Shown: positions 899-21,378 of the stretch, piece after piece
How the letters are laid out: each line of letters starts with the position of its first letter
Numbering within the stretch: position 1 is the first letter of the stretch
Source: a virus
Virus record (IMG/VR): IMGVR_UViG_3300025131_008852
Location: 1-24,394 of that record
Direction: 5' to 3' (one strand)
DNA length: 24,394 bases
Translations under genes and position numbers: made by a program
The notes under the pieces: model-generated
Database searches by the model: none
Told to the model about the DNA's origin: nothing
Seen by the model: only the letters and a program-made list of their open reading frames with translations

Positions 899-919
899 CC
901 AGTGTTAAGTAGGGCCGCC
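899..919 (+). promoter_or_regulatory. Weak late-type motif (CCAGTGTTAAGTAGGGCCGCC)
   Basis: CCAGTGTTAAGTA resembles the CCAGTATCTAAA motif found before late cistrons and is followed by GGGCCGCC, much as the 9860 copy is followed by GGCGCCGCC. It lies between the sigma-like gene and the gene at 946. It is the weakest family member along with 8180. Confidence 0.35.
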
Positions 920-5906: not shown

Positions 5907-5907
5907 G

Positions 5908-6038: not shown

Positions 6039-6308
6039 CTCTCTAACTTTTCTATCGCTGCTGATGACTCACAACAGGTGGCGAGGTGTATTGAGTGTAA
6101 GACGATGCATGACATCGCATCTTTGGGCACTGGTGACTTCGGTCAAGCCAGGGGAAAATGAAACCGTCCTGTGCACATTAGAGAGTTGCTGCGGTCAACA
6201 GCGGTTGCAAAGAGCCGTGTATATTGCGCAACATGCGAAAGTTCCTTCAATGGCAGAACCCATGTGGTCTCATCCTCCGAGGAACTGAAGAACTTATCCA
6301 CCAATTAG
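6039..6308 (+). pseudogene. Decayed or split zinc-knuckle reading frame
   Basis: In one frame, RCIECKTMHDIASLGTGDFG and a short tail run to a TGA at 6159-6161. The same frame then continues with HIRELLRSTAVAKSRVYCAT, CESSFNGRTH and SSEELKNLSTN to TAG at 6306-6308. The two CxxC pairs would make one zinc ribbon if read through. There is no good ATG or ribosome-binding site. A GTG at 6171 could start a 45-residue second half. TGA is used as a normal stop elsewhere in this phage, so recoding is unlikely. A different-frame ORF over 6001-6288 has a less protein-like composition. Confidence 0.35.
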
Positions 6309-6339
6309 GTGTGACTTGTAGATATGATTGATAAGAAAG

Positions 6340-6357
6340 CCCCCTTCTGCCAGGGGG
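6340..6357 (+). terminator. Hairpin before the holin-like gene
   Basis: CCCCCT, loop TCTGCC, AGGGGG is a 6-bp GC-rich stem; AAAGC before it and GCTTT after it could extend the fold. It lacks a U-tract, so it is a weak terminator or a processing structure. The late-type motif follows 33 nt later. Confidence 0.4.
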
Positions 6358-6390
6358 TAATAGTTGTGCTTTAACTAAAAAAAGGCGCCT

Positions 6391-6402
6391 CCAGTATCTA
6401 AA
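6391..6402 (+). promoter_or_regulatory. Late-type motif CCAGTATCTAAA
   Basis: Exact family consensus, preceded by the palindrome AGGCGCCT. It ends one base before the ATG of the holin-like gene, so a transcript starting within or after it would be leaderless. Confidence 0.5.
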
Positions 6403-6403
6403 C

Positions 6404-6592
6404 ATGCGTCACTTACTCGACAAACATCTTAATCGTCTCCTCAGTAGAAAGTTACTTGTCTGGATAGCTGCCTCAGCTTTTCTAGCTACAGCTTCCCTCA
6501 GTTCAGAACACTGGGTGGCTATATCTTTAGCTTACATCTCCATTCAGGGTCTAGCTGATATCGCTTCTCAGTGGCGTTCATCTAAAAAGTAA
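6404..6592 (+). CDS. Holin-like small membrane protein (62 aa)
   Basis: A basic N-terminus (MRHLLDKHLNRLLSRK) precedes two hydrophobic segments, about residues 17-33 and 37-54, joined by a short polar turn, and a basic tail WRSSKK. This size and topology suit a class II holin, which would form membrane lesions to time lysis, but no lysin gene lies in the window and other small phage membrane proteins look alike. No ribosome-binding site is visible; the late-type motif abuts the ATG. Its stop codon overlaps the -35 of a further candidate promoter (6590-6620). Confidence 0.65.
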   Translation: MRHLLDKHLNRLLSRKLLVWIAASAFLATASLSSEHWVAISLAYISIQGLADIASQWRSSKK

Positions 6593-6620
6593 ACAAATCT
6601 GAGATGTAGCCTATACTTAT
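6590..6620 (+). promoter_or_regulatory. Candidate promoter for a short RNA
   Basis: TAAACA (6590-6595), 16 nt, TATACT (6612-6617) inside TATACTTAT (6612-6620). The spacing and ATACTTAT match the other three members of this promoter family. A hairpin and a terminator follow within 80 nt. Confidence 0.45.
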
Positions 6621-6623
6621 ATC

Positions 6624-6700
6624 TTGGTCAACCCCTCCTATTCTCTTGGTTGACCGTATCTTGCAGGAACCCCCGGGCTTTCATCTCCTGGGGGTTTTTG
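6624..6700 (+). ncRNA. Candidate small RNA with CCUCC loop
   Basis: Between the candidate promoter at 6590-6620 and the terminator at 6668-6700 lies about 77 nt with no reading frame. It begins with a perfect 8-bp hairpin, GGTCAACC (6626-6633) and GGTTGACC (6648-6655), whose 14-nt loop exposes CCTCC. CCCCUCC (6632-6638) is complementary over 7 nt to GGAGGGG in the ribosome-binding site of the 42-aa gene. It may be a regulatory RNA, or simply a terminated leader. Confidence 0.4.
6668..6700 (+). terminator. Rho-independent terminator
   Basis: AACCCCCGGG, loop CTTTCATCT, CCTGGGGGTT, then TTTG: a 10-bp stem with one G-U pair and a run of five T (6695-6699). It ends transcription coming from the holin region; a late-type motif begins eight bases later. 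Confidence 0.85.
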
Positions 6701-6707
6701 TTTAAGT

Positions 6708-6720
6708 CCAGTATTTAATA
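6708..6720 (+). promoter_or_regulatory. Late-type motif CCAGTATTTAATA
   Basis: A near-consensus copy just after a terminator and 10 nt before the ATG at 6731. Placement straight after a terminator fits a role in starting transcription. Confidence 0.55.
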
Positions 6721-6730
6721 GAGGTGTCGT

Positions 6731-6976
6731 ATGTCGATTAAAGAAGTTCAGAAGCTCATCAGGAAGCTACCAGAAGTCGAACTGGATGAAAAAGACATTC
6801 AGTCTGTCTGTCTACAGATTCTGTATGATATTGATGGTGACACAGCACAACACCACAGGGCAAAGATTGAAGCTCTCAGGTTGTTGGCTGATATCACACT
6901 CAAGAAGAAGTCAGATGAAGAGGGCGAATTTGGTGATGCAGCAGTGCTCAAAATCTTGGCTGGTGGGAAAAAGTAA
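6731..6976 (+). CDS. Small helical protein, possible terminase small subunit (81 aa)
   Basis: MSIKEVQKLIRKLPEVELDE begins an all-helical protein. The segment QHHRAKIEALRLLADITLKK (about 41-60) resembles the helix seen in some small terminase subunits that precede TerL. At 81 residues it is short for that family, and three genes separate it from TerL. GAGGTG precedes the ATG by five bases. It is the first cistron after the terminator at 6668-6700, so it may open the late operon. The terminase link is weak; a generic late regulator fits equally. Confidence 0.8.
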   Translation: MSIKEVQKLIRKLPEVELDEKDIQSVCLQILYDIDGDTAQHHRAKIEALRLLADITLKKKSDEEGEFGDAAVLKILAGGKK

Positions 6977-6990
6977 CCAGTATCTAAAAG
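6977..6990 (+). promoter_or_regulatory. Late-type motif CCAGTATCTAAAAG
   Basis: Exact consensus starting at the first base after the TAA of the 81-aa gene and lying 69 nt before the ATG at 7059, with a hairpin in between. Confidence 0.55.
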
Positions 6991-7010
6991 ACAGGGCCGA
7001 GTGGTTTCTG

Positions 7011-7039
7011 TTTTGACGTAAAAGTAGATGTAGTCAAAA
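7011..7039 (+). promoter_or_regulatory. Leader hairpin before the 144-aa gene
   Basis: TTTTGAC (7011-7017) pairs with GTCAAAA (7033-7039) around a 15-nt loop. It lies just upstream of the AAGGAGA ribosome-binding site and could affect translation or RNA stability. Confidence 0.4.
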
Positions 7040-7058
7040 GACAAGGAGAAACTACAAA

Positions 7059-7493
7059 ATGGCAAACACAATCGTAAATAAGCAGCCCGTATGGACGGAT
7101 GTTGTCTCAGTTGAGCTGAGCGCTCCTTCCGGAAGTGCGGCAGGTGAAACAAACTCAATACTTATCCCGGGAGGTAACTGGAAGATTACCTCAGCTTGGG
7201 GTATTAAAGAAACAGAAGGCGCCTCAACTGATACCCGAATCGATATCGGCGTCAGTGGTTCGGATGATACTTACACAGAGGCAGTTCTTATCTGCACCGG
7301 TGCTATTCAAGACGGAGAGATTCTACCTTTCCTCTCGGGCACAGTTGCTGCGGAACTATATCTCTCGGGTGCCAGCGACCAGCTGCGGGTGAGCGGCGGT
7401 CAGTATCTGTCACTTCGAAGCAAGTGCATCGGTGGCAGCGGCAACGGTAGCGCATCGGTCTTCATCAATCTGGTAGCTGTCCAGCCTGAGTAA
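7059..7493 (+). CDS. Beta-rich probable virion protein (144 aa)
   Basis: Rich in Ser, Gly, Thr, Ile and Val with alternating hydrophobic residues, as in beta-sandwich proteins; PGGNWKITSAWGI and GGQYLSLRSKC are typical strand-turn stretches. A strong ribosome-binding site (AAGGAGA) and a dedicated late-type motif suggest high expression. It could be a capsid decoration or fibre-related protein, yet it lies upstream of the terminase, away from the other structural genes. No family is recognised. Confidence 0.85.
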   Translation: MANTIVNKQPVWTDVVSVELSAPSGSAAGETNSILIPGGNWKITSAWGIKETEGASTDTRIDIGVSGSDDTYTEAVLICTGAIQDGEILPFLSGTVAAELYLSGASDQLRVSGGQYLSLRSKCIGGSGNGSASVFINLVAVQPE

Positions 7494-7510
7494 GTTAGAA
7501 GACATTTAGT

Positions 7511-7548
7511 TTGGTGGGCATAGCTAATAAGCGGGCTATGCCCACCAA
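7511..7548 (+). terminator. Perfect 14-bp intergenic hairpin
   Basis: TTGGTGGGCATAGC (7511-7524) and GCTATGCCCACCAA (7535-7548) pair without mismatch around a 10-nt loop. The following bases (GCCAACAACCC) hold no U-tract, so this may be an mRNA-stabilising or RNase-processed structure after the 144-aa gene rather than an intrinsic terminator. Confidence 0.7.
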
Positions 7549-7595
7549 GCCAACAACCCTGAAACCCTTATGGGCATCAACGACGGGAGAAAATA

Positions 7596-7949
7596 ATGGG
7601 ATTAAACAGTAGATGGTATGGTTCGCTGCCAACAGTAACAAGCGACACAGTTTTCATTTCACTTCCTGCAAATGCAGAAGCTGGAACAGCGGAATCCTTT
7701 AAAGAGGCGGTTGTAGACCAAATAGAAGGTGACGCCGGAACTATCACCAAGTTCCCTCGAACACTATGGTTATGCAATGACACAGGGGCAACCATCTACA
7801 TTCGAGGTAGAGAGATTACAGCTGCAGCAACAGGCGACGGAGTCCCAATTCCAGCTCTTGGGATTTTAGAAGTCTCATGGCAGAGTGAACCAGATAACAT
7901 GTTTCTGTATGAAGCAGCAGCAGCCTTCACGGTTGCATGTTTCTTCTAA
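7596..7949 (+). CDS. Beta-rich probable virion protein (117 aa)
   Basis: MGLNSRWYGSLPTVTSDTVF and later strands (ATIYIRGREIT, GILEVSWQSE) suggest a small beta-sandwich. The N-terminal SDTVFISLPANAEAGTAESF lacks a signal peptide pattern. GGGAG lies seven bases before the ATG. It pairs with the 144-aa gene across the 14-bp hairpin. Both might be decoration or head-fibre subunits, which is inference from fold and late position only. Confidence 0.83.
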   Translation: MGLNSRWYGSLPTVTSDTVFISLPANAEAGTAESFKEAVVDQIEGDAGTITKFPRTLWLCNDTGATIYIRGREITAAATGDGVPIPALGILEVSWQSEPDNMFLYEAAAAFTVACFF

Positions 7950-7964
7950 TTCTATGGGTGTATA

Positions 7965-8174
7965 ATGAAGAACAGTGAAGCGACGCGCTCAGCTGCACAG
8001 AAAATGCTTGAAAAATTGGAAGACTTGGATTTTGATGACATCAGGGCAATCAATCTCTCCATCATCATGAAAGGTGCTGAAAAGTGCGAAATGGATGAGG
8101 ATGATGAAGAAACGTCCGATGAAGAGAGGATGAAAACCATCGGCAAGAAGAAAGAAAAGGAAGAGGACGGTTGA
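7965..8174 (+). CDS. Small acidic protein upstream of terminase (69 aa)
   Basis: A helical first half (SAAQKMLEKLEDLDFDDIRA) is followed by an acidic run (EMDEDDEETSDEE) and a Lys-rich tail. The start signal is weak (GGGTG). Its place directly before TerL makes it another candidate for a small terminase partner, but no DNA-binding motif is visible. Highly acidic late phage proteins can also mimic DNA or assist assembly. Confidence 0.7.
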   Translation: MKNSEATRSAAQKMLEKLEDLDFDDIRAINLSIIMKGAEKCEMDEDDEETSDEERMKTIGKKKEKEEDG

Positions 8175-8179
8175 TTCAC

Positions 8180-8237
8180 AAGTATAGAGAATGGTGCCGC
8201 CGACCTAAACGGGCGCAGACTCGTCTCGCGACGTTAA
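8180..8237 (+). promoter_or_regulatory. Structured leader of terminase gene (copy 1)
   Basis: AAGTATAGAGAATGG, a weak relative of the late-type motif, is followed by hairpin CGCC (8198-8201) with GGCG (8212-8215) around a 10-nt loop. A second hairpin, CGTC-TCGC-GACG (8222-8233), comes next, then GTTAAAGG as ribosome-binding site. The same order, stem sizes and loop sizes recur before the scaffold gene at 9860-9920. Confidence 0.6.
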
Positions 8238-8246
8238 AGGATTGAC

Positions 8247-9845
8247 ATGATAACCGCCGCTGATAAGATGGCCTTGTTCTCTGATGAGATTCAAAGATGT
8301 TCTAGTGACTTCGTATATTTTTGTGAAAACCACCTGAAGATTATTGATAGGGACGGCAACCTAATCGATTTTCGATTGAAGCCGGCACAAATCGAATTAC
8401 TCAGAAAGATTGAGATGAATCCATGGCAGATGGTGCTCAAGGCACGCCAGCTTGGTTCATCAACATTGATTGCTGCTATTTTCTTCTGGAAGTCATTGTT
8501 CACACCGAATGAGAGAAGCTTGATTGTTGCTCACACACATGAAGCCGTCCGCAACATTTATCGAATCTACAAAACCTTCTACGACCACTTACCGAAGTTC
8601 CTTCAGTTCAGAACCAGGACGTCGTCTGCAAATGAAATCGTTTTCTTTCATGGTGGAACAGTTCGAATCTCCTCAGCATCCGGCCAGAACTTCCGCGGTG
8701 CAACTTACAATAATATTCACTGCTCTGAGGTTGCATTCTGGAAAGATATTGCAATGACCGTTGCTGGACTTTTCCAAACCGCAACTGGTAACTCAAGCAT
8801 CATAATTGAGACAACAGCACAAGGTCTTAACGGTTTCCATAGCATGTGGGTCGACCAAAACAACGGATTTGACAAGACATTCATCAGCTGGTTGCTGGAG
8901 CCCGATTATTCTTTGGATGAAATTGATATCAAACCCACAGAACAACTTATTGAATACGGAAAAGAGTGGGGATTAACACAAGGTCAACTTTGGTGGGCTG
9001 CGCAGACCTTGGCAATTAGATGCACCAACTCGTGGGCAATTTTCTGTCAGGAATATGCCGTAGATGAGTTGACCTGTTTCATCTCCTCAGGTGATAGGTT
9101 CTTTGATGAGGTTTATCCACACGCCCAGTTTGATACAGGCTACATAGAATATGAAGCACCGGGAAAGAATCAAGCATATGTGATGGGGGTTGATACTGCC
9201 GCAGGTTCCACAACAGGAGACTTTTCTGCATTCGCAGTTTTGGATGTCACTGGAACACGAAGAAAGATAGTTTCGACATTCGTTAATCGTGAAAGCCCAC
9301 TAAACTTTGCAAGGCTGGTTCATTCTGAATGCAAGAAATATAACTGTACAGTAGTTGTGGAGTCAAATAGCTATGGTCTAAGCGTAATAGAGTACCTCAG
9401 GCATCAAGAATGGGGAAAACTATACACAAACGAAAAGTATGATGACATCAACAAGGCATGGACATCTAAGATAGGTTTCAACACCAATTCAAGAACACGA
9501 CCAATTCTGTTGTCAGGAATTCAGGGTGCAATCAATGGCCATGCGTTAGTTCCTGACGATGAAAGACTCCAATTTCAAATCAACACATTTATCTACAACG
9601 AAAAAGGACGCCCGGACCATGCCAACGGTGCACATGACGATTTGATTATTGCAGTGGCACTAGCGCTTCAGGGAATCGACCAAGCAATGATTGACGTCGT
9701 AATGAGGCGAAGAGAACCACCGGCAAACCTTCCGGAAGTTCTAAGCCTTGAACGAAAAACAGGAAAATCTGTGTCTGAGCTACAAGAAGAAGGATACTTC
9801 TGCTACACAAACGAAGAGGAACTTTTCACAACTGTTGAGCATTAA
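8247..9845 (+). CDS. terL: Terminase large subunit
   Basis: The DNA-packaging motor with ATPase and nuclease domains. Walker A is KARQLGSST (65-73). The Walker B region is NNIHCSEVAFW with E161 as the likely catalytic Glu. The coupling motif is TTAQG (189-193). The nuclease acidic residues are D316 in VMGVDTAAG, E372 in VVVESNSYG and D464/D465 in GAHDDLIIAVALAL. At 532 residues it is of normal length. AAAGGA precedes the ATG by six bases. It would bind the portal and move DNA into the prohead, cutting at headful or specific sites. All catalytic motifs are intact. Confidence 0.97.
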   Translation: MITAADKMALFSDEIQRCSSDFVYFCENHLKIIDRDGNLIDFRLKPAQIELLRKIEMNPWQMVLKARQLGSSTLIAAIFFWKSLFTPNERSLIVAHTHEAVRNIYRIYKTFYDHLPKFLQFRTRTSSANEIVFFHGGTVRISSASGQNFRGATYNNIHCSEVAFWKDIAMTVAGLFQTATGNSSIIIETTAQGLNGFHSMWVDQNNGFDKTFISWLLEPDYSLDEIDIKPTEQLIEYGKEWGLTQGQLWWAAQTLAIRCTNSWAIFCQEYAVDELTCFISSGDRFFDEVYPHAQFDTGYIEYEAPGKNQAYVMGVDTAAGSTTGDFSAFAVLDVTGTRRKIVSTFVNRESPLNFARLVHSECKKYNCTVVVESNSYGLSVIEYLRHQEWGKLYTNEKYDDINKAWTSKIGFNTNSRTRPILLSGIQGAINGHALVPDDERLQFQINTFIYNEKGRPDHANGAHDDLIIAVALALQGIDQAMIDVVMRRREPPANLPEVLSLERKTGKSVSELQEEGYFCYTNEEELFTTVEH

Positions 9846-9859
9846 TCTGGAAATCTATT

Positions 9860-9920
9860 CCAGTATCTAAAATAGGCGCCGCCTGCCTTAAAGGGCGTTT
9901 GTTTCGTCTACGGACGTTAA
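9860..9920 (+). promoter_or_regulatory. Late-type motif plus structured leader of scaffold gene (copy 2)
   Basis: CCAGTATCTAAAATAGG opens the leader. Hairpin CGCC (9880-9883) with GGCG (9894-9897) has a 10-nt loop, and hairpin CGTC-TACG-GACG (9905-9916) closes on a UNCG-type tetraloop. GTTAAGAGGTGA then supplies the ribosome-binding site. It matches the terL leader in layout. Confidence 0.65.
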
Positions 9921-9931
9921 GAGGTGACAAT

Positions 9932-10708
9932 ATGGCTCTGTTGAATTCAGAAGCTATGGCCGAACTAAGTGTAAGGCTGGAATCTGAAGCGGAAGAAGCT
10001 TCAGTTGAAAAAGAAGCAGTGGTCGAGACCGAAACCCGCGTGGAATCGGAAGCCAAGACCGAAGAAAAGGACGAAAAGAAAGAATCCCAGGACTCGTCCA
10101 CCCATGAGGGAGAAACTGATTCAGGACACGCAGTACCTTACAAAAGGTTCAAGGGTGTTATCGACACGAAGAATGAACTTCAATCGAAGAACAGCAAACT
10201 TGAACAACAGCTAAGTGAACTACGTGCCCAGATGGAAAACCAGACCGCAACTCCTAAGGAGGAACGGGTTAGAGATGAGTTCGATGATATCTTCTCAGAC
10301 TTTGATGAACAGGACGCCCCGGCCGATGACCGTTATTCATCCCTGGAATCGAGACTGAGGACCTTCGAAGAGAAACAAGCTGTACACGACCTTGAGGCCG
10401 AACTACAGAGTGTTACAACTCAATTCCCTAGCGTTCCCGAGTCTGTTCTTCTCCAAGCTGTTGTCAACGACCCAGACGCCAATATGGTACAGGTCGCAAA
10501 AATGTACAGCAACTGGGTAGGAGAAGTTGAGGAAAAAGCAATCGCTCGCCATGTGGCCAATCATAAAGATGTCACAACAAATGCAGCACCACGCCGACCC
10601 TCAGCAACAGGAGCATCAGGTCCATCAACTCTATCAAAGCCACGCACAATGAGTGAAGCAAGAGATGCTGCGCTCGCATTCTGGAAAAGAGAGAACAACC
10701 TCAAATAA
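9932..10708 (+). CDS. Probable capsid scaffolding protein (258 aa)
   Basis: The start at 9932 follows GAGGTGA; an in-frame ATG at 9899 lies inside the leader hairpin region and is rejected. The N-terminal 60 residues are very acidic (Glu/Lys). VPYKRFKGVIDTKNELQS then opens a coiled coil (about 68-102), another acidic region follows, and the C-terminus is basic and helical (TMSEARDAALAFWKRENN). This order, and the place directly before the capsid gene, are typical of scaffolds that guide prohead assembly and then leave. No protease domain is seen. Confidence 0.82.
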   Translation: MALLNSEAMAELSVRLESEAEEASVEKEAVVETETRVESEAKTEEKDEKKESQDSSTHEGETDSGHAVPYKRFKGVIDTKNELQSKNSKLEQQLSELRAQMENQTATPKEERVRDEFDDIFSDFDEQDAPADDRYSSLESRLRTFEEKQAVHDLEAELQSVTTQFPSVPESVLLQAVVNDPDANMVQVAKMYSNWVGEVEEKAIARHVANHKDVTTNAAPRRPSATGASGPSTLSKPRTMSEARDAALAFWKRENNLK

Positions 10709-10730
10709 CGTTCGATAGGAGAACAAACAA

Positions 10731-11984
10731 ATGGCTACTATTTCAACCCTCACCGCTATCCTGAAGGAATTTTACCTCGGGCCGCTGGCTGAGCAACTAA
10801 ACCAGGAAGTCCTGGTATATGACATGTTCGATAAAGCTTCTGTAGATTGGAGCGGCCGCCGAGTCGTAATTCCAGTTCACGTTGCACGTAACACCGGCGT
10901 TGGCTTCTCGCCTGACGACGGACAACTGCCCACTGCTGGAACGCAAGAATTTAAGCGACTTGAAGTTGATGCTAAGTTCCTTTATGGCCGATTCGCCATC
11001 ACTGGTCCCGCGATTGCTTCGGCAAAAACCGGTCCCAATGCCTTCATCAGCTACGTTGATGCAGAGATGAGCAAACTGGGTGAGGACGTGAAAACCGTCG
11101 CCAACCAGCGAGCCGTTTATGGTGGAGCGGTTCTTGGTTACTTGTTTGACCAGGTCAATAACGCTGCACAGCCTTACTCAGGTCGTTCCACAGGTCTGAC
11201 CCTGAACCAGGCGCTTTCAACCGTCGATATCGTTCGAATGGATACCTACGCAACGGTTGCTTCTGCACAGCGTGTTAACACAGTCACTGAGACCGTGATG
11301 ACATTCGACCAAGCTCAGGACCTTACAGCCCCCGCTGCGATGCCTGCTGACCTCGTGTTCGCAGTTGTTGCCCCAACGGCTTCAATCATCGTCAACGGCG
11401 TTGCTGGTGCATGGAACAACGAGCCGGCCGGCATCACAACCAACCTGGCTGCACCGACACACTTTGGTGTTTCTCGAACTGATGCTTCCGGCAACGGTGA
11501 GCTTCAGTCCACACACCGAAAGGTGGGAACCGCGGCTGGTGATGACTACGAACCTTTGACTCTGGATAGGATTCAGTTGATTCTGGACCTGATTCTTGAG
11601 AAAAGTGGTGGAGCGCCGGACGTCATCCTAATGGCCCCTGCAATGCGGCAGGAATACACCGCCCTTCTGGTCGGTTCCTCGGCTGGTAACTTGTACGTTA
11701 CCACGGACAAGGCAACCAAGGGTGATGGCGGATTCACGGGTCTTTCATACGGAGACATCCCAATGAAGACCTCGAAGGACTGCTTCAAGGGCACTTTCTT
11801 CTTCCTCACTACGAAGAGCTGGAAGCTGGTTGAGCTCGAGAGCCCCGGATTCGCAGACTTGGACGGAGCAATCCTGTCCCGCATGCCGGGCCAGGACAAG
11901 TTCGAAGGCTTTTATCGCATGTACTACAATGTCGCTTGCAGCCGACCAAACGCCAACGGCGTTCTGACTGGCATCGAATTCTAA
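10731..11984 (+). CDS. Major capsid protein (417 aa)
   Basis: An HK97-fold type coat protein. The N-terminal KEFYLGPLAEQLNQEVLVYD, then RRVVIPVHVARNTGVGF, FLYGRFAITGPAI and the helix KLGEDVKTVANQRAVYGG match a common arrangement in podo- and siphovirus capsids. The C-terminal half has the P-domain-like helix and the strand ending SWKLVELE. No N-terminal delta domain long enough for internal scaffolding is present, which fits a separate scaffold gene upstream. AGGAG precedes the start. A hairpin downstream probably ends or stabilises this abundant message. Confidence 0.92.
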   Translation: MATISTLTAILKEFYLGPLAEQLNQEVLVYDMFDKASVDWSGRRVVIPVHVARNTGVGFSPDDGQLPTAGTQEFKRLEVDAKFLYGRFAITGPAIASAKTGPNAFISYVDAEMSKLGEDVKTVANQRAVYGGAVLGYLFDQVNNAAQPYSGRSTGLTLNQALSTVDIVRMDTYATVASAQRVNTVTETVMTFDQAQDLTAPAAMPADLVFAVVAPTASIIVNGVAGAWNNEPAGITTNLAAPTHFGVSRTDASGNGELQSTHRKVGTAAGDDYEPLTLDRIQLILDLILEKSGGAPDVILMAPAMRQEYTALLVGSSAGNLYVTTDKATKGDGGFTGLSYGDIPMKTSKDCFKGTFFFLTTKSWKLVELESPGFADLDGAILSRMPGQDKFEGFYRMYYNVACSRPNANGVLTGIEF

Positions 11985-12011
11985 GATATTGGTTAGTTAG
12001 TTCAATATGTT

Positions 12012-12037
12012 CGGGGTCTGGGTTTTCCCAGGCCCCG
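12012..12037 (+). terminator. Hairpin after the capsid gene
   Basis: CGGGGTCTGGG, loop TTTT, CCCAGGCCCCG: an 11-bp stem with one G-U pair, 28 nt after the capsid stop. There is no strong U-tract, so it may reduce read-through or protect the capsid message. A late-type motif follows 15 nt later. Confidence 0.65.
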
Positions 12038-12051
12038 TCCTACTTTAAGCA

Positions 12052-12064
12052 CCAGTATGATATT
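12052..12064 (+). promoter_or_regulatory. Late-type motif CCAGTATGATATT
   Basis: CCAGTAT is exact, the rest diverged. It follows the capsid hairpin and precedes the ATG at 12085, so it would restart transcription for the portal and tail genes. Confidence 0.45.
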
Positions 12065-12084
12065 GATAACCACCGGAGTGTCAA

Positions 12085-12495
12085 ATGGCAAAAAGCAATA
12101 TATCAGACATGTTGGAAATTCGCAAAGGAATTGCAGAACGAATGCTGAAAGAGTCAGAAGAAAATCAAGCGGCCGCAGAAGCTGGAAAAGCAATGAAACT
12201 GAAAGGTGGATTTGCCAAGGGCGGAACAGCACTAGGTACACTCATCGGCGCCATCTACGGACAACCCCAACTTGGTGCCAAGATTGGAAGCGCGGCTGGC
12301 GGCTCGGTTGGTGGTCTCGCTGCTGAAACTCAGCTGAAATCAAAAGGTGCCAAAAAGAAATTCAAAGAGCAGGGCGGCGAAAAAGAAGACCCGATTGCGA
12401 AGATAATTGGAAGCCTCGCAAAATATCAGGGTGCCCTTGGAAGCAAAGACGGCGTCTATGAGGGTGAATCTGACATCCTGAACGAAAGAATCTAA
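12085..12495 (+). CDS. Glycine-zipper protein between capsid and portal (136 aa)
   Basis: A charged helical N-terminus is followed by a glycine-zipper stretch (about residues 41-80): GGFAKGGTALGTLIGAIYGQ, then GAKIGSAAGGSVGGLAAE. Such repeats pack helices tightly and often insert in membranes. The C-terminus is Lys/Glu-rich and ends SDILNERI. GGAG lies upstream of the ATG. The late position suggests a virion protein. A DNA-ejection or internal head protein is plausible; a lysis-related membrane protein is less so. Confidence 0.83.
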   Translation: MAKSNISDMLEIRKGIAERMLKESEENQAAAEAGKAMKLKGGFAKGGTALGTLIGAIYGQPQLGAKIGSAAGGSVGGLAAETQLKSKGAKKKFKEQGGEKEDPIAKIIGSLAKYQGALGSKDGVYEGESDILNERI

Positions 12496-12504
12496 GAGGA
12501 AAAC

Positions 12505-14436
12505 ATGTTCGAACTTAAAGATGTCATCTCCAAGGTGGCTGACTCTAAAACCGCTAAGAACACAGAAGAGAAAGTTTGGGACCTGAATCAACGTTTCATT
12601 CAGGGACAGCAAAACATCTCGTATGATAGAAACCTACAATCATATGTGAATAGAAAGGAGGTGACAAATGTCCCTGTTATCAACCAGCTGCTCCCGCTTT
12701 ATCGAACTGTACTGTCACGTCTTGCTGCGTCTTATCCTGGTGTTGTTGTACTTCCGGCATCACCTTCGAAAGAAGATATTACCAAGGCCCAGGCATCAGA
12801 GGCAGCACTAAGATACTACTGGAAATCTGAGGATATCGCATGTGTCATAAATAAGTGCATTGAGTACCTGCTTCTTTTTGGAAATGCAGGGCTGTTAAGC
12901 TATTACGACCCAGATGCTGATAAGGTATGCACCAAACCAATTAGCCCATTTGATATTTTCTATGAATCAGGCCTAGGAAATGTTGAAGACGCTCGTTGGG
13001 TTGCAATTCGTCAATTCTACGATAAGGACGAACTATCTGAGGCATATCCGGAACACAAGGAGATAATTGAGGCTGACACCGAGGGCAAAGGTTCACCCTT
13101 CACACAGCAGAATAACACATACTCCAATTCAGTTGATTACATTCCTCCAGGAAAAGTGGAGGTGTTTGAGGTTTATCTGAAGAATGGCAAGTATGGTTTC
13201 TTGCTGAAGGATGAATTCATTTTTGAAGGTGAGATGCCGAACAAGGTTTGGCCATTCCAGCACTTGAAGTTCACTGATATTCCCAATCGTCTTTGGGGCC
13301 TATCAATGATAACCCCTTTGATTGAAATTCAGAGCTATTACAATAGGGCACGTGGACAGATTCTTCAGAATGTTGAGCTGATGGCAAACCCCAAGTGGCT
13401 GATTCCCAAGAGCTCAGGCGTTGCACCAAACGCAATTACCAAACGCTCAGGAGAGAAAATCTTCTTCAATCCTGCAGGTGGAAAGCCAGAGCAGATTTCA
13501 GCAGCTCCAATCCCGAGTTATGTCATCGACAACATTCGACAGCTTCAGTCTGAAATCATGGATGTTGCCGGAATCCACAGCACCACTTTAGGCAAGAGGG
13601 CCGTGGGTGTCATCTCTGGTAAGGCCATTGAAAAACTATCGGCGAATGATGTTAGTGCTCTCCAGACAACACAGGATAGCATTGAGAGGGGTTGTGGAGC
13701 CATGGCAAAGGCTGTTCTTTCACTCATGAAGGAATACTATAAAAAGCCGAAGATGTATCGCATGCTTGACAACCTTGGAAGGGTAATTTTTCATGAGGTT
13801 CATGATACAAACATCGTCAATGACCCAGAGATTCACATCGAGGCTGGTTCACTTTTCCATGATAAGGCACAGGATAGAGAGACACGAATCATGGCAATGT
13901 TTGAGGCCGGACTTCTTGAAAAGGAAGAGGCACTCAAGGAGTTAACTTACAGAACAGGAAATGCTTTCATCATTGAGCAGCTGGAAGGCAGGGCACATGC
14001 TCGAGATATGCTGGATGCCGTTCGAGCCGGTGCAGCCATCGAGGTCTTCTCAACTGATAATCTGAAATCGTTTGCCGAGGTATTCAATGAATTCTCTAAG
14101 ACACGTGATTTCTATGACTTGGATGAAGAGAGGCAGGATTATGTTCGTGACATCTTGATTGCCGTATCTGCACCACCCGGACCTGAAGGTGATGAGGTTG
14201 CAGAAGCTGCACGAAAGAATATGAAGGTCTTCCCAAGGTCTTCAGCCAAGAGTTTGGACCAAGCTAAGTTGCAGTCTGTTCAACAGCAATCACCGGTTGC
14301 TGCAGTTCAAACGGCGGCTGGAGCAGTTGACCAAATGGGCGAACAAGGATTGTTGAACAAAATGGAAATGGCTGAGAGTCGACAGGCTGACACTAGCGTA
14401 AATGAAGCCATCAAACAACGAGGCGCAGCGAGGTAA
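12505..14436 (+). CDS. Portal protein (643 aa)
   Basis: The dodecameric portal at the capsid vertex, through which DNA passes and to which terminase and tail attach. Support comes from length, late position and characteristic stretches: YVNRKEVTNVPVINQLLPLY near the N-terminus, the wing/stem region around FTDIPNRLWGLSMITPLIEI and QSYYNRARGQILQNVELMAN, and IMDVAGIHSTTLGKRAVGVI (about 350-375), typical of podovirus (P22-like) portals. A Gln/Ala-rich C-terminal tail (about 590-643) would be the barrel/crown region. AGAGGA precedes the ATG. Confidence 0.9.
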   Translation: MFELKDVISKVADSKTAKNTEEKVWDLNQRFIQGQQNISYDRNLQSYVNRKEVTNVPVINQLLPLYRTVLSRLAASYPGVVVLPASPSKEDITKAQASEAALRYYWKSEDIACVINKCIEYLLLFGNAGLLSYYDPDADKVCTKPISPFDIFYESGLGNVEDARWVAIRQFYDKDELSEAYPEHKEIIEADTEGKGSPFTQQNNTYSNSVDYIPPGKVEVFEVYLKNGKYGFLLKDEFIFEGEMPNKVWPFQHLKFTDIPNRLWGLSMITPLIEIQSYYNRARGQILQNVELMANPKWLIPKSSGVAPNAITKRSGEKIFFNPAGGKPEQISAAPIPSYVIDNIRQLQSEIMDVAGIHSTTLGKRAVGVISGKAIEKLSANDVSALQTTQDSIERGCGAMAKAVLSLMKEYYKKPKMYRMLDNLGRVIFHEVHDTNIVNDPEIHIEAGSLFHDKAQDRETRIMAMFEAGLLEKEEALKELTYRTGNAFIIEQLEGRAHARDMLDAVRAGAAIEVFSTDNLKSFAEVFNEFSKTRDFYDLDEERQDYVRDILIAVSAPPGPEGDEVAEAARKNMKVFPRSSAKSLDQAKLQSVQQQSPVAAVQTAAGAVDQMGEQGLLNKMEMAESRQADTSVNEAIKQRGAAR

Positions 14437-14438
14437 AA

Positions 14439-15140
14439 ATGGCACTTAAGTACGTAGAAGATGTTGCGGGATATTTCCGCAAAATAACTGATGAGAGTGA
14501 TACAACTTTTATGTCTGATGCAGATATGCAACAGTTTTTGGAAATTGGAGAGAATGAGTTTATTCAGCATGTTTCTGACATCGACCCAAACTTCTATTTG
14601 GTCTCTCAGAATTACACACTGTCAAATGTCAATCAGTACAGTTTGGCAAATGTTGACCCTATCATGGGTTCACTGGCTGTGCCACCCCTACAACGTCAGG
14701 TTTCACAAATCATTCGAATTGTTCAGCTAGACGATTCAGGCAATGTGTCTCATGTTTTCAATCCGGTGTACTCTTATGAAGCACTTGTCTCACCGGGTGG
14801 TGGATGCCCGGCCAAATATATGCTTCAGAATACAGACCTGAAGTTTAGTGGAAATGTTACTGCTACAATTCGTGTAGAATTCATTCCTCTATCAAATGTT
14901 GATTGGACAAAAACTGACTCCGGTGATAATGAGTACATCTCAGAGCTGATTGCTTTCCATGACTTGATTGCTTTGTTTGCAGCAAAATCATACTTCATGA
15001 TTGATGATGCTAACAACTCTTCAACTATGCGACAAATCAAAGTTCGATTAGGGCATCTTCAGGACTTCACAGAGAGGGGCCGCTTGCGAAATGCAAATCG
15101 TTATGTGGGTGATGAAGATATGTGGCTAGTTAATGGGTAA
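14439..15140 (+). CDS. Head-tail adaptor-like protein (233 aa)
   Basis: It starts two bases after the portal stop, with GAGG upstream. The helical beginning (DVAGYFRKITDESDTTFMSD, ADMQQFLEIGENEFIQH), a beta-rich middle and a helical end (ELIAFHDLIALFAAKSYFMI, RQIKVRLGHLQDFTERGRLR) fit the connector proteins that sit below the portal in podoviruses. Position between portal and nozzle gives most of the support. Confidence 0.7.
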   Translation: MALKYVEDVAGYFRKITDESDTTFMSDADMQQFLEIGENEFIQHVSDIDPNFYLVSQNYTLSNVNQYSLANVDPIMGSLAVPPLQRQVSQIIRIVQLDDSGNVSHVFNPVYSYEALVSPGGGCPAKYMLQNTDLKFSGNVTATIRVEFIPLSNVDWTKTDSGDNEYISELIAFHDLIALFAAKSYFMIDDANNSSTMRQIKVRLGHLQDFTERGRLRNANRYVGDEDMWLVNG

Positions 15141-15150
15141 AGGAGAATAA

Positions 15151-18129
15151 ATGGCTGTCTTCAACAAAAACTCCAAAATGCTCGAGTTACTCAAGAAGGG
15201 TATGACACCCAATAAAGATGACAAAGGCGTAAGTTGGATTCAAAATCTCCAAAGAAACAAGGATAGCTGGGAGGTTCGACCTGGATTCGGAACCCGAGCT
15301 ACGTTGGACACCTGTTTGACGACCGGAAAGGAACAGGTCGACGGACAACCTGTAGGTCTACAGCGGCATCTGGGTTCCTATTTGTTGCGTGATACAGGAT
15401 TTGGACACAAACAGATTATCTCCATTTTTCGCACGCTAGCATATACATCTGATTTTCTTCGAAGTGAGGAAAGTGCAGCCTCAGAGTGGACACGACTAGG
15501 ACAGTATCGTGTTCTATACACTGCATTTGTCTATGACCTTACTACAGACGAAAGGTTTGAGATTCCTTTTGTTCGACATACCAGCCAAGTAAGTTCAGAA
15601 ATTTCTGACCGTCATGCCAACTATGAAACGTCTCGTGGCACAAAGTATGAGAGGGATTATCAGGTATGGATTAACGCAGGTCAAAATGAGGCAAGCACTG
15701 GAAGTGAATTCAATACTGATGAAAAAGAGTTTTTCTGGTTCACTGAGCAAAAGGATAATGCTGGACGAGTTTATGTGTTCTTCGGAAATGCCCGGGCTGG
15801 TGCTTGGTTCTATACACCAATTGACCCCCGATATTCTGAGAAGAGTTGGCGACAACGAAGAATGGCAGTAAATGGAATCTACACCCAGGATTTCAAAGAC
15901 CCATACGGTGAAGTTTCATGTATCCAACCACTGGTTGTTCGAGATGGAATCTTTACAGATGATGGAATAACCTACACAACCAATGATGAGTTTGGATTGC
16001 CACAGGCCGCTTGCGCGCTAGGCAGACGAATGGTCTATGCTGTTGGAAATGTTTTGTATTTCTCAGACCCTGAGGATTTCAACGCAATTATGGATGGCAA
16101 TATTCAAGGTTTCAAGTCTAACATTGTGGCCGTGGCCGCAACACTTGGTAACTTGCTTGTTTGGACTGAGGATGGAAAAACCCATTACTACAACCCAGCA
16201 CAAGGTGACCTAATCTCAGGTGGTCGAACTGTAACAATCTCAGATGATGTGGGTATCCTAAATCCAAACTCATGGGTCAACGTAAATGGCGCAATTATTT
16301 GGGTGGATAAGAACGGCATCTATCGAAACTACGGAAACACCACAGTTCAGCGAATCTCAGATAATCTCGAGCTATTCTTCCAACGAGGAATCAGCAATGG
16401 TTTGATGAACTATTACACTTACAACGGTGCATCACAAGGAACTGACCCGCAGCCACATACATTCTATGAGTGGAATAGAACATCTCAGGTTGGTGTCAAC
16501 CTATCATATCAACCAACTGACGAGCAAATCTTCATCAACATTCCATTCTTGAATATTTCGTTTGTGATTGAAGATGGTGGTTTCCATGTTTGGAATTATG
16601 AATCGATTGTGTCGATGATTGATTCCGGAAGTTTTAGTATTCCGGACGTAGCAGCGGTTCAAAATATGCCACAACCATGGGTTCTTGGTGATACAAACAG
16701 TGTTTTCATGGTGACAGATGTTACAACCACAGCAATAACAGATGAAACGATATATGATGAAAATGCAACAGATTTCAATACTGCTGAGGGGTCATTCTCA
16801 ATTTTAGAATTGGGCCGCGGCGGTGGTATCGATGCATCAATTTCATCATATATTGAAGATAGACGAACAATCAACGGTGAATGGTTTGACAATGGAATAA
16901 GCCAGGATATCACGTCAAACCTTCGTGATAGAGGCTTCTACTTTATCAACAAACCTATCAAGATTCCTGACGGATATAATTTCACATGGGCAGGAGCTTC
17001 TGTTGATTCGTCGTCAGAACTTGGTCCGATTTGGATTCCTATTGAGCTGGTTCCGGTTCGGTCTCAGATTGGGGTTTATCCGGAAACGCTGAAAAATATT
17101 GAAAAAATCTCCATGGAATTCAAGTTTGATAACACATCCTGGGCACCATATATCAACGCAAACGCTACTGAATCCTATGAGCCAGTTTTTGATTTGCCAC
17201 CTGAGAGGTTGGGTGCAAAAGGCGCATACTTTGTAGGTTCTGCAAATGAAACACTTAGTAAGGGTGTTAGGGTTTATGACTCAGGTGGCGCAACACCTTC
17301 AGCCACCGGTGATACAATTCGAATCGATTTGAATGCCGCTAGCGGGTCTCATGTAATAACCCCGAAGTTTGGTTTGATTCCACGATATAGAAACCCAATT
17401 CTAATGATGGCTTTCTACAAAAAAGCATCTGCAAATAATGATTCTTATGCACCAGCATTTGAAAATATCCTTTGCACGATGTCCGGGAGTCACATAGCAC
17501 AAGCACCGCTGAGAGTTTGGAATGACCAAGCACGCGGCCTGGAAATTGTGCAAAATACAAATACAGCACAATCAGTTGATTGGATGTACACAGCCAAAGA
17601 AATCTCCAGTGATGACACCGGATTCATGATGAAGGCAAGAGGCATTAATATTGATGTCGAATCATCTTCAAATGCAACACTTCAGTCTGATAATCCTGGA
17701 CAAGGTGACCTTCCAGGAGAATGGCCGATTCGAGTCTTCAATGTTTTGACTTCCACAAACTATAAGCACTATGCTGCTCAGCTGTTGGATTTCACATCTG
17801 ACCCAGCTGCCTTGATTCGTGTGGCTAAAGATGCTGTTCGAAACAGGATGGGAACATCAGCAGTTCAGTTTGCTGCAAAGTTCTCAACAATTGGGGGAAA
17901 GCTTAGCACAACAAAACCAAAGTGGGGTGACCATGATGTCAGCACTGAAGGAAACCTATTGATTGGTGACCCTGAGTACGACAATATCAAAACCTCTGTA
18001 GGTGTCAAGGGTGACAGAATCATTGTTCAAATGTTCGGCCATATTCTTTCTCCTGCTGAAAAGCTAAGAGTTGGAATGGCAAAACTCTTTACTCGAATTA
18101 TGCCCGGGCTACGAAGGCGAGGTCGATAA
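15151..18129 (+). CDS. Tail nozzle-like protein (992 aa)
   Basis: The largest gene in the window. Residues about 280-420 contain beta-propeller-like stretches (GRRMVYAVGNVLYFSDPEDF, NLLVWTEDGKTHYY, GAIIWVDKNGIYRNYGNT) like those in P22 gp10/T7 gp12-type nozzle proteins that close the tail tube and hold packaged DNA. The second half is beta-rich and may carry extra domains for fibre attachment or receptor contact. AAGGAG precedes the start. It follows the adaptor, as expected for a short tail. The assignment rests on fold-like patterns and order; this protein is longer than the classical nozzles. Confidence 0.75.
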   Translation: MAVFNKNSKMLELLKKGMTPNKDDKGVSWIQNLQRNKDSWEVRPGFGTRATLDTCLTTGKEQVDGQPVGLQRHLGSYLLRDTGFGHKQIISIFRTLAYTSDFLRSEESAASEWTRLGQYRVLYTAFVYDLTTDERFEIPFVRHTSQVSSEISDRHANYETSRGTKYERDYQVWINAGQNEASTGSEFNTDEKEFFWFTEQKDNAGRVYVFFGNARAGAWFYTPIDPRYSEKSWRQRRMAVNGIYTQDFKDPYGEVSCIQPLVVRDGIFTDDGITYTTNDEFGLPQAACALGRRMVYAVGNVLYFSDPEDFNAIMDGNIQGFKSNIVAVAATLGNLLVWTEDGKTHYYNPAQGDLISGGRTVTISDDVGILNPNSWVNVNGAIIWVDKNGIYRNYGNTTVQRISDNLELFFQRGISNGLMNYYTYNGASQGTDPQPHTFYEWNRTSQVGVNLSYQPTDEQIFINIPFLNISFVIEDGGFHVWNYESIVSMIDSGSFSIPDVAAVQNMPQPWVLGDTNSVFMVTDVTTTAITDETIYDENATDFNTAEGSFSILELGRGGGIDASISSYIEDRRTINGEWFDNGISQDITSNLRDRGFYFINKPIKIPDGYNFTWAGASVDSSSELGPIWIPIELVPVRSQIGVYPETLKNIEKISMEFKFDNTSWAPYINANATESYEPVFDLPPERLGAKGAYFVGSANETLSKGVRVYDSGGATPSATGDTIRIDLNAASGSHVITPKFGLIPRYRNPILMMAFYKKASANNDSYAPAFENILCTMSGSHIAQAPLRVWNDQARGLEIVQNTNTAQSVDWMYTAKEISSDDTGFMMKARGINIDVESSSNATLQSDNPGQGDLPGEWPIRVFNVLTSTNYKHYAAQLLDFTSDPAALIRVAKDAVRNRMGTSAVQFAAKFSTIGGKLSTTKPKWGDHDVSTEGNLLIGDPEYDNIKTSVGVKGDRIIVQMFGHILSPAEKLRVGMAKLFTRIMPGLRRRGR

Positions 18130-18645
18130 ATGACTAAACATGTCCGAGAACTGCCTGTTGTTAAGCAGACCAATCCTAAGGAGCAGTATCAGCAAGAAGT
18201 CCGACAAGAGGCATTTCGAACCCTGGATGCTCTGGGCTTGACGACAAACAAAAGCGTTGTTAAGAAAACGGATACACTTCACTTTTTGGCAGCACAGAAG
18301 TTTCCTTTGGGAGCTTTTTCCGGTGATGATATTAGAATCAACTCAACCGGCGGTTCAGAGATAACGGCCAAGACAGACTTTTCCAGTGGTAATCATGTGG
18401 TTTCAAATGTGGATTTCACAAAGGGCATCACACTTCAGGATAATGCAATTGTGGCCTTTAACGGATGTCGGATTCAGGATGTTGTTACAGTTGCTGATGG
18501 AGGAAAAGCTGTTTTTGCTGGCTGCGTTTTTGAAGACGATGGATACGTAAACAATGCCGGACCTGCTGCAAATGTGGGTATTGTTGGATGCATAAAAACA
18601 TCATCAACACTTCACGTCAACGCAACAGACATTTTTTCGGTGTAG
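18130..18645 (+). CDS. Small beta-helix-like tail protein (171 aa)
   Basis: The ATG follows the previous stop with no gap (TAA-ATG), with GAGG inside the preceding gene. After a helical N-terminus (residues 1-45) come short repeated strands, such as DNAIVAFNGCRIQDVVTVAD and GGKAVFAGCVFEDDGYVNNA, typical of a right-handed parallel beta-helix. It may be a short spike, a fibre connector or a tail-plug protein. There are not enough coils for a full tailspike. Confidence 0.78.
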   Translation: MTKHVRELPVVKQTNPKEQYQQEVRQEAFRTLDALGLTTNKSVVKKTDTLHFLAAQKFPLGAFSGDDIRINSTGGSEITAKTDFSSGNHVVSNVDFTKGITLQDNAIVAFNGCRIQDVVTVADGGKAVFAGCVFEDDGYVNNAGPAANVGIVGCIKTSSTLHVNATDIFSV

Positions 18646-18652
18646 GAGAAAC

Positions 18653-19540
18653 ATGAGCACTCGCAAGATTTCAAAACAGCAATTCGAAGATGGCGTGTTG
18701 ATAGACACTTCTGGAATTTCCAGGTTTGTTGATGATGCTGTTAATCATTTCAATTTCATCCCACCCGGCACAGACAAATCTAGCTGGATTCAACAGCAAG
18801 CTGTTTTTGGTTACACTGAGCGTCGATTCGATTGGTTGGTGGGCGCAGACAATGATACTGTTTTTCGTGAGCCGCCGTTCATGCAAGCCGTCAACAACAA
18901 TGTGGCAAACCCAACTGATGGCATTCGAATGAAAGGTGTCAACTCTAAATCAGCTGCCATAAATGTTCAGGCAGGTTCTGGCGGAAAGTATTGTCGAAAT
19001 GGTTTCATTTGGCAGTCATCGTTCTGGGCTGACAGACCTTTGGTTGTGACTGATATGGACCTGTTCTTGCAGGTCGATTCTAATTATATTTCCGGAACAG
19101 ATGCGCCATACAACAAAGACTGGACATGGTCAACAACCGGACCGGTCGACACAATTACTAGTGGTTCTTTTGTGGAAGATGTTGTATTGCAGCTTGAGGT
19201 TGATTCACCCATGAATGCTTCTCAGGTTGATACAAGCAATGTTGAATTGCATAAGTCAGAATTCTATCTTGATGGTCAGCTGGCGATGTATGATGCATCA
19301 TGGTCATCTGATATGCTGCCTAGCATGGGAAATCAGGCTTACGGTGTTTGCATAACAGCACGTGATATCAATGTTCCTATTGCTGCGAAGTCACGCGTCA
19401 GAGTAAACATTTTCATACCGGATTGGGATACATCATCAACAGTAGATGTTGGAGATGTCAGGTGGATGACTCAACCATACGCGCCTTGGCGCCAGCAGGG
19501 TTATAATCTCACATTGACGTGGCTCGAAAGGAAAACTTAA
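18653..19540 (+). CDS. Probable tail/fibre protein (295 aa)
   Basis: It begins MSTRKISKQQFEDGVLIDTS with a short helical N-terminus suited to attachment, then a long beta-rich body with many Asp, Ser, Trp and Thr. TAGGAG precedes the ATG. The next gene starts with a similar K-I-S-K sequence, so both may dock on the same tail site. Family not recognised. Confidence 0.8.
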   Translation: MSTRKISKQQFEDGVLIDTSGISRFVDDAVNHFNFIPPGTDKSSWIQQQAVFGYTERRFDWLVGADNDTVFREPPFMQAVNNNVANPTDGIRMKGVNSKSAAINVQAGSGGKYCRNGFIWQSSFWADRPLVVTDMDLFLQVDSNYISGTDAPYNKDWTWSTTGPVDTITSGSFVEDVVLQLEVDSPMNASQVDTSNVELHKSEFYLDGQLAMYDASWSSDMLPSMGNQAYGVCITARDINVPIAAKSRVRVNIFIPDWDTSSTVDVGDVRWMTQPYAPWRQQGYNLTLTWLERKT

Positions 19541-19542
19541 TT

Positions 19543-21348
19543 ATGACTAAAATTTCGAAGGTCAATCTAACACGCGGTACGAAACTTTCCAAGCAGCACT
19601 GGAATACACCTATGCTTGAAATCGAGCAGATGTTGGTAAGTGGAACAGTTCAGGCTGAAAACCTGGAACGAAACAATGCTAACTTTAGCATGACATTCAA
19701 TATTCCCAGGCTTCCTGCCTATGCATTCTCTGAGCAAGACCCAGATTTTGACCGGTCGCAACTGGTTATTCCGTTCGTTCTACCGCCTTTGCAAGACCAC
19801 TGGACAAAAACGGTTGTTGGTTCTGACACACCAATGTCTGTTTTGAAGTCAATGTCTGTTTCGTTGGATTTGGGAATGGGTCCAAATGCGGCATTCGATA
19901 CCTGGGATGGAACTGCAACGCCAGATGATTCAGAGTTTGAGTCCGAACGGGCATTCACCTATGACATGGATATCGAAATTCGTTCCAAAGACCAGAGCTA
20001 TGTTTATGGCGACTCAGCAGATGTTGTCTATAACGTTCCCAAGGAATCGATTTATAGCGGAAGTATTCCTGGTATGGCCTTTTTCAATGGTATGGCCCAG
20101 CAATTCAATCCCGTTTTTATTACAGATATTAATGAGGCAATTGACCCACTGAAGACGTACACACTAAATATCAACTTCCCAAACCTATGGGAAGGATGGG
20201 TAAACGATGTTGATGCAACAGAGCGCGCTGCAATATCATCTCTAACAATGAAGCTTAACTTTGAGGGCGCAATCCAAGAAAGGGATGTGTATGTCTCAGG
20301 TTCTTATGGAATCCAAAACATTCCCACTTCAATGTCAGGTACAAAATCCGGACAGTCAATCACCTTTGATTCTGTAACATCGGGTTCCAACATCACAGCT
20401 CGAGCAGGTACTGCAGCCAATGGTCGCCTACAAAGAAATGCAGAAATCCTTGATGTGAATGCGAGTAAAGGTCTGGCTGCTGGCCGCGATATTCGAGGTG
20501 TCCAGCCGGCTGAGGAACCCATTGAAGCTGATACAGGATATTTCGTTCTTGCTGTTCCAATGTTTGGCGGATGGAATGATATTCGAGCATCTGACATCAA
20601 TGAGATTGGTCTCCCTTATGGTCCGCAACAAACCTCAGGCACTCTTGACCCATGGTCCGGCAACATTCAGGACAGGAGAATCATTCCAATTTCTCAGCCT
20701 TTCACAATTCACCGAGTGATTGCTGTTCATAGTTACTATTCTCATGCCCACACAGATGGTTCAAGTTATCCTAACTTTGATGGCGATGGCAGGGATGGAG
20801 GCACGTGGGGAGCTGGACATGTTCCATCAAACGCTAGTTTCACCTCAGCTATTGGTGTAGGAATCAGTACAGGACTTCGAGCTGATGCCAAGGAATACGA
20901 ACAGGTTGCTTATGCCACAATGACACCAGGCGACAAGACAGACTATCTCGTTGACAGGGTCAAGAGCGGAAAGTTTGCTCCGGGTTGGGGCGGCGGAACT
21001 TGGACAAACAATAATTACGACTTTGAAATCTTTGAGATTCCTTTGGTGGAGAATGTTGTTTCCGGAGAGAACACTCGTGGTTACTACAATCAAGGCTTCC
21101 CATATTACGTTGGCAAGTCAGGTCTTGGAACCTATGAGAGACAACCTGTTGGCACTGTTGCCGGCGGAACCAGAGAACCAAATACAGAGGGCGGCGAGCT
21201 TGTGATGGAAGTAAGGTGGATAATATCAGATGCTGGCGGTTTGAACGTTGGTGCTGGTGCCCACACAAATAACACGTGTTTTGTAGGGATGGGTGGAAAT
21301 TGGGTTTACATCTACGGAAAGATGTCGACGTCCACGACGCATATATAG
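19543..21348 (+). CDS. Probable receptor-binding or tail protein (601 aa)
   Basis: The ATG at 19543 follows AAAGGA by 10 nt; an in-frame ATG at 19519 would overlap the previous gene by 22 nt and is less likely. The N-terminus (MTKISKVNLTRGTKLSKQHW) is helical. The rest is beta-rich, with a Gly/Asp segment SYPNFDGDGRDGGTWGAGH (about 413-432) that could bind calcium, and a Gly-rich C-terminus ending in strands (GNWVYIYGKMSTSTTHI). Large size and position after the nozzle fit a fibre or spike that meets the host surface. The sequence does not show a polysaccharide-degrading site. Confidence 0.8.
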   Translation: MTKISKVNLTRGTKLSKQHWNTPMLEIEQMLVSGTVQAENLERNNANFSMTFNIPRLPAYAFSEQDPDFDRSQLVIPFVLPPLQDHWTKTVVGSDTPMSVLKSMSVSLDLGMGPNAAFDTWDGTATPDDSEFESERAFTYDMDIEIRSKDQSYVYGDSADVVYNVPKESIYSGSIPGMAFFNGMAQQFNPVFITDINEAIDPLKTYTLNINFPNLWEGWVNDVDATERAAISSLTMKLNFEGAIQERDVYVSGSYGIQNIPTSMSGTKSGQSITFDSVTSGSNITARAGTAANGRLQRNAEILDVNASKGLAAGRDIRGVQPAEEPIEADTGYFVLAVPMFGGWNDIRASDINEIGLPYGPQQTSGTLDPWSGNIQDRRIIPISQPFTIHRVIAVHSYYSHAHTDGSSYPNFDGDGRDGGTWGAGHVPSNASFTSAIGVGISTGLRADAKEYEQVAYATMTPGDKTDYLVDRVKSGKFAPGWGGGTWTNNNYDFEIFEIPLVENVVSGENTRGYYNQGFPYYVGKSGLGTYERQPVGTVAGGTREPNTEGGELVMEVRWIISDAGGLNVGAGAHTNNTCFVGMGGNWVYIYGKMSTSTTHI

Positions 21349-21349
21349 T

Positions 21350-21362
21350 CCAGTATCAGTAG
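21350..21362 (+). promoter_or_regulatory. Late-type motif CCAGTATCAGTAG
   Basis: CCAGTATC is exact. It starts two bases after the stop of the 601-aa gene and 17 nt before the ATG at 21379, and so separates the tail genes from the last gene group. Confidence 0.45.
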
Positions 21363-21378
21363 GAAGAGGTAAAACAAA

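Follow-up and report, generated by a model that had tools for sequence, protein, structure and literature searches.

A conserved intergenic CCAGTAT element as a candidate phage-specific late promoter in an uncultured podovirus-like phage

In an uncultured bacterial virus, a short sequence, CCAGTAT, recurs between genes: what function can it be assigned, and what would read it? The DNA analysed (the window), 24,394 bases long and linear, is a genome fragment that encodes terminase, capsid and portal proteins, and belongs to a podovirus-like phage. The first-pass annotation placed the sequence at 6391, 6708, 6977, 9860, 12052 and 21350, and proposed that it is a late promoter specific to the phage. 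All six coordinates are correct, all copies are on the plus strand (none on the minus strand), and all are intergenic, although intergenic DNA makes up only about 10% of the window. Three copies do lie within 15 nt after a stop codon, at distances of 0, 1 and 14 nt, and the "several" copies said to be extended amount to three exact occurrences of CCAGTATCTAAA (6391, 6977 and 9860). Both of the weaker relatives are real, one at 899 (CCAGTGTTAAGTAGGG) and the other (CAAGTATAGAGAATGG) at 8179, one base to the left of the position first given (8180). The sites and the features discussed with them are collected in Table 1.

Table 1. Motif sites, hairpins and candidate regulatory genes in the window.
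Feature	Position	Strand	Remarks
Stand-alone sigma-70 region 4 protein, 70 aa	677..889	+	Pfam Sigma70_r4, E = 2.3e-6, above cut-off
Variant motif CCAGTGTTAAGTAG	899..912	+	before gene 946-2010
Candidate phage sigma factor, 232 aa	3656..4354	-	among leftward genes; 45% identical homologue in G003
Motif CCAGTATCTAAACA	6391..6404	+	before small membrane protein gene 6404-6592; ATG starts at motif position 14
Terminator-type hairpin with U tract	6663..6701	+	-24.2 kcal/mol; upstream of 6708 motif
Motif CCAGTATTTAATAG	6708..6721	+	behind terminator hairpin; ATG at 6731 after a 10 nt leader
Motif CCAGTATCTAAAAG	6977..6990	+	directly after stop of 6731-6976 (81-aa gene), before gene 7059
Variant motif CAAGTATAGAGAAT	8179..8192	+	before terminase large subunit gene 8247-9845; leader like that of 9860 site
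Motif CCAGTATCTAAAAT	9860..9873	+	between terminase and putative scaffold gene
Terminator-type hairpin, weak U tract	12012..12037	+	-24.1 kcal/mol; after major capsid gene, upstream of 12052 motif
Motif CCAGTATGATATTG	12052..12065	+	between capsid-gene terminator and gene 12085
Motif CCAGTATCAGTAGG	21350..21363	+	before gene 21379

Taken by itself, the copy number is moderately unusual, because six copies of CCAGTAT were reached in 2 of 100 shuffled versions of the window (mean 1.86 on both strands), and because CCAGTATCTAAA, the only 12-mer with three copies in the window, has its equal in 13 of 300 simulated sequences, in which some 12-mer occurred three times. A search of the window with the 12-mer, allowing three mismatches, gave 25 matches where 17.8 were expected, which is not significant alone, and a literature search for the literal 7-mer showed no relevant paper among the results listed. 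The case for the motif rests on position, strand and conservation, rather than on copy number.

The annotated phage collection yielded no close relative of the window (capsid matches there are 23–34% identical). Four IMG/VR contigs with major capsid proteins 71–73% identical to that of the window were the only close relatives found, and were retrieved by a capsid alignment of three sequences, the window and two distant phages. They are denoted G001, G002, G003 and G004 (L006, L007, L008 and L009, respectively, where positions are cited). All are linear fragments, and they have a gene order in common with the window. G003 is near-identical to G002 over the shared part, so that the number of independent genomes is four (the window, G001, G002/G003 and G004). 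Single-sequence searches of viral_contigs with the terminase, the capsid and a 992-aa protein gave no relatives; alignments of the portal, the terminase and the candidate sigma factor gave no further close relatives in viral_contigs, and those of the portal and candidate sigma factor gave no close relatives in genome_contigs. Scanning for a pattern of the 12-mer plus a ribosome-binding site returned at least 120 matching stretches, one per contig among the matches listed. In a distant relative, G005 (35% capsid identity), the motif is absent at the equivalent places.

A motif search in relatives had been suggested as a check in the first-pass annotation; it showed the motif at boundaries shared with the window, and CCAGTA concentrated in coding-strand intergenic DNA. 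No other 6-mer is as concentrated there when the window is left out (8/13; p = 1.4e-6 uncorrected, or about 0.006 when corrected for 4,096 words), and the 6-mer ranked second, AATAGA, is another portion of the motif consensus. The terminase–scaffold boundary carries the motif in 4/4 independent genomes (9860 in the window, L006:3372, L008:9093 and L009:1621), as does the boundary behind the capsid gene (12052, L006:6404, L009:3781, and a variant, CAAGTAT, at L008:11325). At the 6977 boundary it is kept in all three genomes that cover this region (also L006:945 and L008:4385), and the arrangement at 6391 is repeated in G001, with the motif at L006:500 and the ATG at 513. The motif was not found at the boundary equivalent to 21350 in the relatives, nor in front of the membrane-protein gene of G003. 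A matrix trained on the six window sites only gave intergenic, plus strand sites the four highest ranks in G001 and the two highest in G004. For G002/G003 the true sites were mixed with gene-internal ones and had no clean lead; G003 has three sites only, and many gene-internal matches of equal score.

The two copies described as following terminator-type hairpins (6708 and 12052) do so, the second hairpin having a weak U tract. The succession of capsid gene, strong hairpin, motif and next gene occurs in three of the four independent genomes (the window, G003 and G004), with post-capsid hairpins of -24 to -28 kcal/mol and a U tract that is good in G003 and G004. In G001, an endonuclease-like ORF (L006 about 5570-6380) lies between the capsid hairpin and the motif, and the motif keeps with the downstream gene. 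A hairpin is also present upstream of the motif at L006:1515. Another hairpin of the window, at 7509-7549, is very strong (17 bp, -31.9 kcal/mol) and has no U tract; it lies between genes 7059-7493 and 7596-7949, in the sole sizeable rightward gap without a motif. The terminase and scaffold genes have a common leader (8179-8249 and 9860-9934, plus strand), in which the motif is followed in order by CGCC...GGGCG, a hairpin-like CGTC...GACG, TAAAG and then the ribosome-binding site, and every close relative keeps a leader of this type before its scaffold gene.

Eighteen sites were aligned. As these were picked by the CCAGT core, conservation of the core follows from the selection, and columns 8–15 are the fairer test. 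The consensus is CCAGTAT, one free base (position 8), an A/T/G-rich stretch and, usually, a purine at position 14. Among the 126 cells of positions 9–15 there is a single C; position 12 is always A or T (18/18 sites), and a purine stands at position 14 in 15/18 (G in 11/18). From -45 up to the motif, the aligned sites show no conserved block and no -35 element. The earlier statement that the motif is not a consensus -35/-10 pair holds for the window sites: with hexamers at 15–19 nt spacing, as expected for host sigma70, a pair of at least 8/12 is missing at six of the eight, and those at 9860 and 21350 are in differing registers. The alignment fits a single-element promoter that starts close to position 14. 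Taking position 14 as +1 would put CAGTAT at -12 to -7, the place of the -10 hexamer for sigma70-type polymerases. The distance from this predicted start to the AUG is 0–69 nt at the eight window sites, and never passes the start codon. In two genomes the ATG lies exactly at position 14 (6391 in the window and L006:500 in G001), and the window copy has no ribosome-binding site ahead of it, which suggests that leaderless mRNAs are made from these sites. A -35 role for the motif was rejected, because transcripts beginning some 35 nt farther on would start inside genes 6404, 6731, 12085 and 21379.

A phage-specific promoter should appear as a conserved element that is repeated in front of genes, on their coding strand, and is kept in relatives, and CCAGTAT has these properties. 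The first-pass proposal of a phage-specific late promoter is the reading best supported by the shared boundaries, the positions after terminators, the purine at a fixed distance and the sparing of the AUG, and we consider promoter activity probable, with good confidence. The sequence itself shows the motif, where it lies, that it is conserved and that no upstream element accompanies it; from this we infer promoter function, a start site, late timing (virion genes lie downstream) and a reader. CCAGTAT would be the core of a single-element late promoter, at about -13 to -7, from which an easily melted A/T/G-rich stretch would run on to -1; transcription would start at or near position 14, usually a purine, and no -35 would be used. 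Eight such promoters, two of them variant, would drive rightward virion-gene operons, and several would reset transcription just past a terminator. With moderate confidence, the reader is predicted to be host RNA polymerase with a phage-encoded sigma factor, the first candidate being the 232-aa protein of Table 1.

The first-pass annotation had offered three options for how the motif is used: host polymerase with a phage factor, which is favoured here, a phage polymerase, which comes second, and an RNA processing site, which has become less likely. A single-subunit (T7-class) RNA polymerase, encoded in a genome part missing from the contigs, would suit an element that is compact, lacks an upstream partner, is one-sided in its placement and has an A/T-rich stretch running up to a purine start; a terminator behind the capsid gene is also found in T7, and every close-relative contig is a linear fragment. 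On the other side, no PF00940 polymerase was detected in the four close and 17 distant relatives (many 40–48 kb) when the phage T7 control was found, although the distant relatives, with only about 25–35% capsid identity, bear weakly on the clade of the window, and the close ones, being fragments, leave room for a polymerase in the missing part. We regard a T7-class reader as unlikely. Ordinary sigma70 promoters are less likely because there is no -35. Alternatively, a phage activator or repressor might bind the motif next to weak promoters that the host's own sigma factor reads; the motif's conservation, orientation and intergenic position, together with the other small HTH-type proteins of the window, are in keeping with this. 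Such a role is nevertheless quite unlikely, given the six window sites without a -35/-10 pair, the lack of a conserved flanking block, and the start codon directly behind the motif in two genomes, which leaves no downstream room.

A signal for processing or translation, working in RNA within a polycistronic message, would explain the coding-strand location of the motif between genes, often just past a stop codon, and the conserved, hairpin-rich segment that follows the motif in both the terminase and the scaffold leader. However, the motif recurs immediately behind terminators, stays with its downstream gene despite the inserted ORF of G001, and takes no consistent position in predicted RNA folds, and the leader alignment supports structure weakly (-2.9 kcal/mol). 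Processing in particular is disfavoured by the retention of the motif downstream of terminators and by the ATG at position 14, and a role in RNA is considered highly unlikely. Chance repetition of a functionless word, for which the rare shuffles with six copies might be cited, is contradicted by the independent conservation at the same boundaries in relatives, and is scarcely credible.

If host polymerase is directed by a phage sigma factor, the leftward genes supply a candidate. The 232-aa protein is Cys/His-rich at its N-terminus, and shows a sigma region 2-like segment (about aa 58–110) and a region 4-like helix-turn-helix (about aa 187–215), both resemblances being judged by eye. Comparison was limited to the window and G003, the two contigs that cover its region. 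Predicted models have mean pLDDT values of 57 (window) and 52 (G003 homologue), and the PDB matches of both are mostly ECF sigma factors, with no Foldseek E-value below 0.36. The only NCBIfam match of the window protein is to an RNA polymerase sigma factor (aa 71–135, E = 0.014, far below cut-off). Nothing was found in Pfam or PHROGs, a pairwise profile comparison (hhalign) with E. coli RpoE gave no match, and there was neither a match in the phage collection nor a solved relative. These resemblances are weak but concordant, and make the protein a reasoned lead as a candidate phage sigma factor. Its region 4-like domain might suggest use of a -35, contrary to the sites, which have none. The stand-alone 70-aa sigma-4 protein is a possible co-factor of the reader; in G002/G003 its homologue is encoded immediately upstream of the terminase, and it could therefore also be small-terminase-like or regulatory. 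A further protein of 80 aa, encoded by the first leftward gene (5615-5857, minus strand), contains a helix-turn-helix that weakly matches the sigma region 4 type (E = 0.036). Tentatively, this may be an orphan phage lineage whose late genes are read by a highly divergent ECF-type sigma factor with an N-terminal Cys/His-rich domain, perhaps with a sigma-4-only helper, from a new single-element promoter able to launch leaderless mRNA, a combination that is possible but doubtful as a whole.

The late promoter sequence of T4, TATAAATA, differs from CCAGTAT, and T4 also requires a sliding clamp; the two are alike in their short element, recognition confined to the downstream part, and lack of a -35. 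T4 late promoters (gp55, gp33, gp45) have an 8 bp element and no -35, and gp33 has been called a sigma-4 mimic (PMC2988020), to which the separate sigma-4-only protein found here may be likened. In phiEco32, the phage sigma factor gp36 reads middle/late promoters with a single element, tAATGTAtA, and no -35, the starts being 6–8 bp downstream of the element and ahead of virion genes (PMC8948821). The window is similar in its one conserved element, lack of a -35, position before virion genes, matching geometry, and early genes on the opposite strand. It differs in the element, which is CCAGTAT-N-A/T/G-rich and not phiEco32-like, and in a candidate sigma factor for which the phage collection offers no detectable relative and which carries a region 4-like domain, whereas gp36 is reported to be without one (PMC8948821). 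Phage 7-11 likewise uses a phage sigma factor (here a candidate) to read promoters before virion genes, but its late promoters are bipartite, GTAAtg-(16)-aCTA (PMC8948821), and CCAGTAT has no upstream partner. Phage-specific promoters had earlier been predicted from repeated intergenic words (PMC4331800), but for phage 7-11 subsequent experimental work revealed another element, a bipartite one (PMC8948821), so predictions of this kind can fail; conservation across genomes is stronger evidence than repeats inside one genome. T7-class promoters are similarly compact, start right after an A/T-rich segment and are repeated before late genes, but differ in recognition sequence, and a T7-class polymerase was not found in the 21 related contigs, of which the close relatives are fragmentary.

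Because the promoters of phage-specific sigma factors are short and few, predicting them is difficult. The set described here was defined purely by comparing uncultured relatives, and one gene can be named as the likely reader. Phage-specific single-element promoters are already known, and what would be new is the sequence CCAGTAT as a promoter. If the prediction is correct, a new sequence specificity and a divergent sigma-type protein would join a small list, and would constitute an orthogonal promoter–factor pair.

Two other gene features were observed in the window. The adjacent genes 946-2010 and 2020-3297 (plus strand) have no assigned function and encode proteins with similar N-termini (WxxMSxxxxKVAML), and 3306-3668 (minus strand) is a homing-endonuclease-like gene of the GIY-YIG type.
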